NCBI RefSeq assembly: GCF_003073135.1
Contig: NZ_PGDQ01000006.1
Coordinates: forward strand, 1-64,000
Length of the DNA: 64,000 nucleotides
Source: Euzebya rosea
Lineage (GTDB): Bacteria; Actinomycetota; Nitriliruptoria; Euzebyales; Euzebyaceae
Direction of reading: 5' to 3'
The notes below the pieces were generated by a model, which saw only the letters and a list, made by a program, of their open reading frames with translations, was not told the DNA's origin and searched no databases. The translations under genes and the position numbers were made by a program. Below, piece after piece: positions 59,593 through 62,166 of the stretch (the stretch's first letter is position 1; every line of letters begins with the position of its first letter).

Positions 59593-60885
59593 ATGTTCCG
59601 CGCATTCGCGAACGCCTTCAAGATCCCCGATCTGCGGGGCAAGATCCTCTTCACCCTGGGGATCATCGCCGTGTACCGCCTGGGTTCGGTCATCCCGATC
59701 CCGGGCGTTGACTACTCGGTGCTCAACAACATCCTCGACCAGGCCGAAGCCAGCGGCGTCGCCCAGCTGCTGAACCTCTTCAGCGGTGGGGCCCTGACCC
59801 AGCTGGCCGTCTTCGCGCTCGGGATCATGCCGTACATCACGGCGTCGATCATCATGCAGCTGCTTGCGGTGGTGATCCCGAAGCTCGAGGAGTGGCAGAA
59901 GGAAGGCGCCACCGGCACGGCGCGGATCACGCAGATCACGCGCTACGTCACCGTCGTCCTGGCCGTCCTGCAGTCGACGGGCCTGATCGTGCTGATCCAG
60001 TCCGGTCAGCTGTTCGGCAACGCCGGCATCGACACCAGCGCGCTGATCCCCGACGACTCGGTGCCCAAGCGCGCCCTGATGATCCTGACCCTCACCGCGG
60101 GTACGGCCTTCATCATGTGGCTGGGCGAGCTGATCACCCAGCGCGGTATCGGCAACGGCATGTCGATCATCATCTTCGCGGCGATCATCGCGGCGCTGCC
60201 CGGCCAGTTCTCGGCCATCTACCAGCAGTCGCTGCCGCTGTTCATCGCCTTCGTGATCGTCGGCCTGATCCTCATCGTGGGCGTGGTCTACGTCGAGCAG
60301 GGCCAGCGCCGCATCCCGGTGCAGTACGCCAAGCGGCAGGTCGGTCGTCGCCAGTACGGCGGCCAGCAGACCTACATCCCGCTCAAGGTCAACCAGTCCG
60401 GCGTGATCCCGATCATCTTCGCCTCGTCGCTGCTGTACCTGCCGACGCTGGCGGCCTCGATCGTCAACAACGACGCGCTGACGAACTTCACCAACCGGTA
60501 CTTCCAGTCCGGCGCCCACCCCGTGTACATCATCACGTACCTGGCGCTGACCATCTTCTTCGCGTTCTTCTACACGGCCATCACGTTCAACCCGATCGAC
60601 GTGGCCGACAACATGAAGAAGTACGGCGGCTTCATCCCCGGCATCCGTCCGGGCCGGCCGACCGCGGAGTACCTGGACCGCGTGCTGACCCGCATCACCC
60701 TGCCGGGTTCGCTGTACCTGGGTGCCCTGGCCATCCTCCCGCTGGTCGTGCTGAGCTTCGGCGACGCGCTGTTCCCGCTGGGCGGCGCCACCCTCCTCAT
60801 CGTGGTGGGTGTGGGCCTGGAGACCATGAAGCAGCTCGAGTCCCAGCTCATGCAGCGCCACTACGAGGGCTTCATCCGCGGCTAG
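59593..60885 (+). CDS. secY: Preprotein translocase subunit SecY
   Basis: A 430-residue channel subunit of the Sec translocon with ten membrane helices. AVYRLGSVIPIPGVD, LGIMPYITASIIMQLL, the loop GITQRGIGNGMSIIIF-type segment (seen as QRGIGNGMSIIIFA) and GFIPGIRPGRPTAEYLDRV are conserved. ATG 59593 follows AGGAGA. A perfect hairpin and a long non-coding repeat region follow it. Confidence 0.97.
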   Translation: MFRAFANAFKIPDLRGKILFTLGIIAVYRLGSVIPIPGVDYSVLNNILDQAEASGVAQLLNLFSGGALTQLAVFALGIMPYITASIIMQLLAVVIPKLEEWQKEGATGTARITQITRYVTVVLAVLQSTGLIVLIQSGQLFGNAGIDTSALIPDDSVPKRALMILTLTAGTAFIMWLGELITQRGIGNGMSIIIFAAIIAALPGQFSAIYQQSLPLFIAFVIVGLILIVGVVYVEQGQRRIPVQYAKRQVGRRQYGGQQTYIPLKVNQSGVIPIIFASSLLYLPTLAASIVNNDALTNFTNRYFQSGAHPVYIITYLALTIFFAFFYTAITFNPIDVADNMKKYGGFIPGIRPGRPTAEYLDRVLTRITLPGSLYLGALAILPLVVLSFGDALFPLGGATLLIVVGVGLETMKQLESQLMQRHYEGFIRG

Positions 60886-60900
60886 CCCGAGAACCCTGTC

Positions 60901-60929
60901 GAACGCACACACCCCTGGTGTGTGCGTTC
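60901..60929 (+). terminator. Terminator after secY
   Basis: GAACGCACACACC (60901-60913) pairs perfectly with GGTGTGTGCGTTC (60917-60929) around CCT, 15 bases after the stop. Confidence 0.8.
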
Positions 60930-60974
60930 GTCGTTGTCGGGGTCCGTCGGGGTCGGTGTGGCCTGTCTGGTGGC

Positions 60975-61077: not shown

Positions 61078-61112
61078 GGTCGACCGCGGCCCGAGGGGCC
61101 GGGGGCAGCGGC

Positions 61113-61499
61113 GTGTGGCATGGCCGCCCGCGGGGGAGGGGGATCGCACACGGGGCAGGCCGACGTGTGGCATTGACTCCTCCCAGGGGTGGGGACCGCA
61201 CACGACGGGGCAGGGCGTGTGCGATGCCCGGCGCTGCGGGGTGGTCATCGCACACGGCAACGGGTTCACCGTGCGGCGGCGGGTGCGTCGGGCCCGGGCC
61301 ACACCGTGCGGCGGGTGCGTGGGTCCACCGCGGGCCGAGGGGCCGGGGGCAGCGGCGTGTGGCATGGCCGCCCGCGGGGGAGGGGGATCGCGCACGGGGG
61401 AGCCCGATGTGTGGCATTGACTCCTCCCAGGGGTGGGGACCGCCCACGACGCCCCGGGGCGTGTGCCATGCGCGGCCCCGGAGGGAGGGCATCGCACAC
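61113..61499. repeat. Array of six 39-bp elements with inverted-repeat ends
   Basis: Six elements, each exactly 39 bases, start at 61113, 61165, 61217, 61357, 61409 and 61461. Each begins GTGTG and most end in GCACAC; in the third, GTGTGCGATG and CATCGCACAC are perfect inverted repeats. Within each group of three the elements are separated by exactly 13 bases (period 52). The second group is an offset copy of the first (244 bases away): elements 1/4 and 2/5 differ by one base, while 3/6 share only the ends. The insides are G-rich on the plus strand. No gene is supported in 60930-61590. Confidence 0.9.
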
Positions 61500-61590: not shown

Positions 61591-62166
61591 TTGAGACTGG
61601 TACTGCTGGGACCGCCTGGGGCGGGCAAGGGGACCCAATCGGCGATGATCTCGGAGACCTTCGCGATCCCGCACATCTCCACGGGCGACATCTTCCGTGC
61701 CAACGTCAAGGGCGAGACGCCGCTGGGCAAGGAGGCCAAGGGGTACATGGACAAGGGCGAGCTCGTGCCCGACTCCGTGACCAACCGCATGGTCGCCGAC
61801 CGCCTGCGCCAGCCCGACGCCGAGAAGGGGTTCCTCCTCGACGGCTATCCCCGCAACGTCGCCCAGGCCCACACCCTCAACGGGATGCTGGCCATGCTCG
61901 ACGAGACGCTCGACACCGTCCTGCACTTCTCCGTGCCCGACGACGAGCTCGAGGCGCGCATCGCCAAGCGGCAGTCGGAGGAGGGGCGCGCCGACGACGA
62001 CGCAGCCGTCTTCCAGCGTCGCATGCGTGAGTACCGCGCCCAGACCGAGGACCTGATCCCGTTCTACCGCGAGGTCGGCATGCTGGTCGACGTCGACGCG
62101 GTCGGCTCCATCGACGAGGTCCAGGAACGCGTCCTGACCGCCTGCCGCCAGGCCTCGACCGCCTGA
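61591..62166 (+). CDS. adk: Adenylate kinase
   Basis: A 191-residue short-type adenylate kinase (AMP + ATP to 2 ADP). P-loop GPPGAGKGT (7-15), STGDIFRANV, LLDGYPRNVAQA and a short lid without zinc cysteines. TTG 61591 is the start; GAGGAGA lies eight bases upstream. Since the 0.7-kb repeat region separates it from secY, it probably has its own promoter (TAGGCT at 61546 is a weak candidate -10). Confidence 0.95.
   Translation: MRLVLLGPPGAGKGTQSAMISETFAIPHISTGDIFRANVKGETPLGKEAKGYMDKGELVPDSVTNRMVADRLRQPDAEKGFLLDGYPRNVAQAHTLNGMLAMLDETLDTVLHFSVPDDELEARIAKRQSEEGRADDDAAVFQRRMREYRAQTEDLIPFYREVGMLVDVDAVGSIDEVQERVLTACRQASTA

Follow-up and report, generated by a model that had tools for sequence, protein, structure and literature searches.

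What kind of signal lies between secY and adk in Euzebya rosea, where six short elements with palindromic ends follow one another within the 64,000-nucleotide stretch of DNA that was analysed here (hereafter, the window)? The locus is laid out as follows, in window positions:

59593-60885, + strand: secY, the upstream neighbour (SecY homologues in all 21 genomes searched)
61083-61112, no strand: left flank, matching 61327-61356 at 29/30 and belonging to the duplicated segment
61113-61151, no strand: dyad element 1 of triad 1 (39 bp; 12/12 core positions)
61152-61164, no strand: linker of 13 bp, triad 1
61165-61203, no strand: dyad element 2 of triad 1
61204-61216, no strand: linker of 13 bp, triad 1
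61217-61255, no strand: dyad element 3 of triad 1
61256-61356, no strand: inter-triad gap of 101 bp, interrupting the 52-bp period
61357-61395, no strand: dyad element 1 of triad 2, the tandem duplicate (38/39 identical to 61113-61151)
61396-61408, no strand: linker of 13 bp, triad 2
61409-61447, no strand: dyad element 2 of triad 2 (38/39 identical to 61165-61203)
61448-61460, no strand: linker of 13 bp, triad 2
61461-61499, no strand: dyad element 3 of triad 2 (31/39 identical to 61217-61255; 12/12 core positions)
61591-62166, + strand: adk, the downstream neighbour, with the adenylate kinase P-loop GPPGAGKG

The first-pass annotation had described six elements of exactly 39 bp bounded by GTGTG...CACAC, and this description stands, with a single end change in elements 4 and 5. 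The strict 52-bp period that it had also reported holds inside each group of three, where the linkers are 13 bp long, but not across all six, elements 3 and 4 being separated by 101 bp, and the spacer is better described as two triads (3+3; 61113-61255 and 61357-61499). Triad 2 duplicates triad 1 in tandem (126/143 positions identical), and the duplicated segment takes in ~30 bp of left flank, in which the two copies agree at 29 of 30 positions. Elements 3 and 6, at first thought to have diverged almost completely, are still identical to each other at 31/39 positions; drift is confined to this pair (elements 1/4 and 2/5 are each 38/39 identical), and all 12 core positions, as defined below, are intact in each of the six elements. 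Just after secY (60901-60932) lies a hairpin, CGAACGCACACACCCCTGGTGTGTGCGTTCG, which carries the same half-site facing outward and has no T-tract, and a similar hairpin also trails secY in E. pacifica. An 18-base repeat upstream of the triads, GRGTGCGCGCGGGCGTGG, had been credited with the same 52-base period, but it occurs three times (60975, 61027 and 61060) at spacings of 52 and 33 bp; this GC-rich tandem repeat contains no dyad and is probably unrelated to the triads.

Taken alone, the ends of the elements are weak evidence, because the loose pattern GTGTG-N29-CACAC (one mismatch) is expected 3.9 times per shuffled window. The genome-wide search proposed in the first-pass annotation favours a fuller pattern: GTGTGNNAT-N23-CGCACAC (≤2 mismatches) has 129 forward matches in the 5.5-Mb genome vs. 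5-8 in a reversed control. Weighted detection without any spacing rule recovered 211 elements from 1.09 Mb of Euzebya DNA and 0 from shuffled sequence. Among neighbours 39-120 bp apart in this 1.09 Mb, 110 of 126 are spaced by exactly 52 bp and nine by 104 bp, and runs of exact period comprise 47 of three elements, 16 of two and none of four or more. A full triad is 143 bp long, and several Euzebya loci have a second triad ~210-450 bp from the first. Whole-triad tandem duplications, 83-98% identical and apparently recent, occur in this genome at the locus in the window and at others such as L029, L031, L038, L043, L071, L073, L075 and L077, which are mostly single-triad loci in E. pacifica. 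Four contigs of this genome (C1, C11, C13 and C22) have their start or end no more than about 130 bp from triad elements, and the triad that opens C11 is 91% identical, in inverted orientation, to the one that opens C22; this suggests that the assembly breaks near these repeats and that copies may be missing.

Across 130 non-redundant elements, the dyad core consists of G1, G3, G5, T9, C13 and C16 and their mirror G24, G27, A31, C35, C37 and C39, with positions 2, 4, 6-8 and 10-11 restricted and positions 14-15 and 17-23 weakly so. The dyad is of odd length, with a single central base and seven weakly conserved bases between C16 and G24, and the G-runs, for which quadruplexes had been suggested in the first-pass annotation, lie outside the conserved core. 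That annotation had also proposed, from the window alone, selection on two ends kept a constant distance apart, of the sort seen in dimeric protein sites, and this idea gains from the larger sample, in which the constraint extends inward to T9, C13 and C16. No covariation was detected between mirrored pairs (i with 40-i) at the variable positions of these 130 elements, nor between pairs over whole triads above a column-shuffled null, so that the symmetry is best understood as that of a pair of half-sites that vary independently, such as a protein dimer would contact. A G at position 2 is found in 49% of the linker-facing arms of outer elements vs. 4% of all other arms, and from this bias the triad is one symmetric unit. 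A negative correlation between half-site deviations was non-significant in middle elements and was therefore set aside.

The triads hold their places between species. Of the 25 triad loci fetched from E. pacifica, 23 are syntenic with triads of this genome (one of these at a contig end of this genome); for the remaining two, the stretches fetched for comparison held no counterpart. Over 16 orthologous triads, identity reaches 95-99% at positions 1, 3, 5 and 16 and 85% at positions 9 and 13, vs. 50-56% at the centre and 73% in the linkers; at the level of sequence, the dyad core is under purifying selection. The intergenic flanks, once aligned, agree at 74% of positions and contain 69 gap events in 2,743 bases; the orthologous triads were aligned ungapped, since detection required 52 bp, and independent support for a constant triad length therefore comes from the free spacing test above rather than from this comparison. 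The first-pass annotation had asked whether relatives might have unrelated DNA of variable spacing at this place, and E. pacifica has the same geometry there: a single triad in the same secY-adk spacer, whose variable letters are 46-48% alike to those of the window, vs. 46 ± 6% for unrelated triads. In Euzebya G002 and G003 this spacer is short and triad-free, and arrays are absent genome-wide. One E. pacifica locus holds an apparent worn remnant of a triad.

All 53 array loci are intergenic. Array-bearing gaps are convergent in 25 cases, tandem in 25 and divergent in none, vs. 8, 60 and 50, respectively, for array-free gaps of at least 150 bp at the same loci (Fisher p about 9e-10 for convergent enrichment and about 4e-10 for divergent depletion, with genes called by a custom codon-usage script and the gap background drawn from array-bearing loci only). 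The neighbouring genes are of mixed functions and have no Pfam family in common, no convincing array-adjacent protein family was found to be common to Euzebya and Bifidobacterium, and searches near the arrays and through family tests found no cognate protein.

Bifidobacterium enters the comparison through an exact scan for two generic elements, run on one genome per species, in which the sole match was Bifidobacterium rousetti (the query's own and very near genomes being possibly excluded), sitting in the same architecture as the Euzebya arrays. An order-wide scan found arrays in 2 of 30 genomes, both Euzebya; no further carriers were found in 396 genomes of the phylum or in 396 genomes of the Bifidobacterium order, which yielded one two-mismatch match without array character, and neither viral contigs with arrays nor plasmid records containing the window spacer were found. 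Within Bifidobacterium, 4 of 112 species carry 39-bp dyads, with arms GCGAGAG-RT...CTCTCGC, in arrays of 2-6 elements whose spacing alternates between 53 and 51 or 53 and 52 bp, i.e., 104-105 bp per two elements. This corresponds to ten helical turns, as 52 bp does to five turns at 10.4 bp. Bifidobacterium and Euzebya dyads have G1, G3, G5, T9, C13 and C16 in common. In the Bifidobacterium arrays a single pair covaries (15/25, z 4.7; T..A or C..G) and, when the arrays are read by eye, tracks species, the pattern that a trans-acting factor should leave if its specificity drifts. Several array positions are common to these species, lying in orthologous neighbour clusters. Bifidobacterium G101, the nearest relative of the array-rich G102 (one protein compared, 91%), has no arrays, and at one of these common positions its spacer is short and contains an ordinary hairpin in place of the array. 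Arrays are thus present as a whole set per genome or not at all, which suggests a trans-acting factor whose loss frees all sites.

Our best reading of these sequences, to which we give a probability of roughly two in three, is that each triad is a dispersed, cooperative and helically phased binding array for a putative dimeric protein, probably architectural or insulating. Each 39-bp element would be the site for a dimer, or for a dimer of two-domain subunits, with a half-site of ~16 bp and three predicted contact patches (G1/G3/G5, T9 and C13/C16). With five helical turns from each of the three sites to the next, the bound protein would lie on the same face of the helix, and same-face binding could allow cooperative assembly into one symmetric 143-bp complex. 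Dozens of intergenic gaps at the 3' ends of genes would hold such complexes, which would serve no particular genes. The placement at gene ends, the lack of a gene-specific function and the conserved positions together suggest an architectural or insulating role, either DNA bridging or an insulator or roadblock between converging transcription units. The restriction of the arrays to a few species of two distant genera counts against this reading, as does the failure of the searches described above to find a cognate protein.

Other explanations fit parts of the same evidence. Mobile palindromes of the REP/BIME kind, which a transposase (REPIN/RAYT or MITE-like) would have dispersed and which would since be decaying, would account for the dispersed intergenic copies, for some paralogous triads that are 80-97% identical at different loci and for the tandem triad duplications of this genome. 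REP/BIME elements are imperfect palindromes with a GTAG or CGTC head that form stem-loops with complementary stem changes, and GTAG families are associated with a Y1 tyrosine transposase, which CGTC families lack (PMC3733652); binding of several proteins has been reported, and roles in chromosome organisation and termination suggested (PMC2817692). Like their enterobacterial and Pseudomonas counterparts, the triads are dispersed, intergenic, high-copy and regularly arrayed, with palindromic units in the 20-40 bp range. Unlike them, they form strict sets of three 39-bp dyads at 52 bp, their variable positions are about half identical between loci, and they have no GTAG or CGTC head in the consensus and no compensatory stem changes. 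The transposase that the first-pass annotation had proposed to look for is missing from every array-bearing genome: no Y1_Tnp (PF01797) was found in G000 (this genome), G001 (E. pacifica), G030, G047, G102 or G104, nor in any of 12 genomes in total, vs. 5 positives among 14 control genomes. The RAYT form is largely refuted, and with synteny at 23 of 25 loci and a core that is under purifying selection rather than decaying, we consider mobile palindromes in general improbable. Core-type sites of a site-specific tyrosine recombinase, in which a free 7-bp overlap (positions 17-23) would have a 16-bp arm on either side, are suggested by the odd-length dyad and the seven weakly conserved central bases between C16 and G24, a match that may be coincidence. 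An active recombinase site, another early suggestion, sits poorly with the conserved gene order that flanks the arrays at 23 loci in the two species and with stable triads, and heptamers at the element centres show no diversification within triads of the kind that selection for overlap heterology would maintain, leaving this explanation with little likelihood.

Repressors typically combine dimeric dyads with helical phasing and cooperativity, features that would suit operator arrays through which one transcription factor controls the adjacent genes. Convergent gaps are enriched and divergent ones absent, however, the neighbours are functionally unrelated, and no sigma-70-type promoter match was found in the window spacer, all of which makes operators an unlikely identity for the triads. 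Finally, dyads that are able to fold and that lie at gene 3' ends could belong to a structured RNA or to tandem terminators, and a folded RNA had been among the first proposals. Neither the elements nor the triads covary, the elements have no Rfam match, their predicted folds are mostly unremarkable, and a search of the window locus found no terminator match (GC-rich stem followed by a T-tract); an RNA role is highly improbable. Serine recombinase res or att sites were also rejected: these sites need an even-length dyad, cleaved around a central dinucleotide, vs. the 39-bp dyad with a single central base found here. Likewise rejected was a link to Wadjet, as JetD, present in G000 (weakly), G030, G104 and G127 and absent from E. 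pacifica, G047 and G102, does not track the arrays.

The protein-binding array that we favour can also be set beside characterised nucleoprotein sites. The F plasmid centromere sopC comprises 12 tandem 43-bp repeats that contain inverted repeats and to which a dimer binds cooperatively. It resembles the triads in layout, with dyad-bearing units in tandem and of similar length, and is one long plasmid array, unlike the many chromosomal triads here. The res site of Tn3-type resolvases packs three dyads into a compact site with a centre distance close to 52 bp between sites I and II, as in the triads, whose dyads, unlike those of res, are equal and have a single central base. NBS of Noc, SBS of SlmA, matS of MatP and parS are short single dyads that occur by the dozen across chromosomes and are not tied to gene function; the triads resemble them in number and in independence from gene function, and differ from them as phased sets of 39-bp dyads. 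Each known family tested fails a defining feature, by which novelty of function is not proven, and we found no published description of these arrays in the open-access literature. With confidence just short of even, it is tempting to speculate that they represent an undescribed class of chromosomal nucleoprotein site, in which a patchily distributed protein family would build phased arrays of 39-bp dyads, as triads or 4-6-mers, at gene 3' ends; its oligomer geometry would be conserved between distant actinobacteria and its sequence specificity would drift, and arrays would be kept with the protein and lost genome-wide without it. It is uncommon for a bacterial sequence signal to hold its exact geometry at dozens of loci when most of its letters have changed. 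The recurrence of the 39/52-bp layout, written in other letters, in a distant genus provides a starting point for identifying the protein and for studying how neighbouring transcription units are kept apart on chromosomes, and the arrays offer a natural record of DNA-binding specificity drifting along with all its sites.

In E. pacifica, dnaA lies at the contig start and the gene-strand bias switches near 2.8 Mb, the presumed terminus. Its contig C1 is triad-free for 1.41 Mb (1.04-2.44 Mb; p about 0.02 under uniform placement). Terminus avoidance of the Noc/SlmA type was considered and rejected, as this gap is off-centre from the presumed terminus, near which triads occur at 2.44, 2.66 and 2.81 Mb, so that there is no clear terminus exclusion.

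Further repeats occur in Bifidobacterium. Arrays of 39-41 bp dyads with a 51-bp period and other arms (GGTACGAC...GTCGTACC and TCACAAC...GTTGTGA) lie in G102 (L118:498-795) and B. rousetti (L128:10690-10936), and may represent a second family of motifs with this architecture. The spacer of the G102 array also holds three tandem palindromes of ~45 bp with a period near 61 bp (L118:300-470; CGAGAA...TTCTCG outer, CCGCTG/CAGCGG inner). At another B. rousetti locus (L135), 3' of a gene ending at 2019, two adjacent half-elements, with ~14 bp of loop between the arms, compose a perfect inverted repeat, GATATGACGAATCCGTCTCGC, a partial form of which is present at the same locus in G047 (L134).
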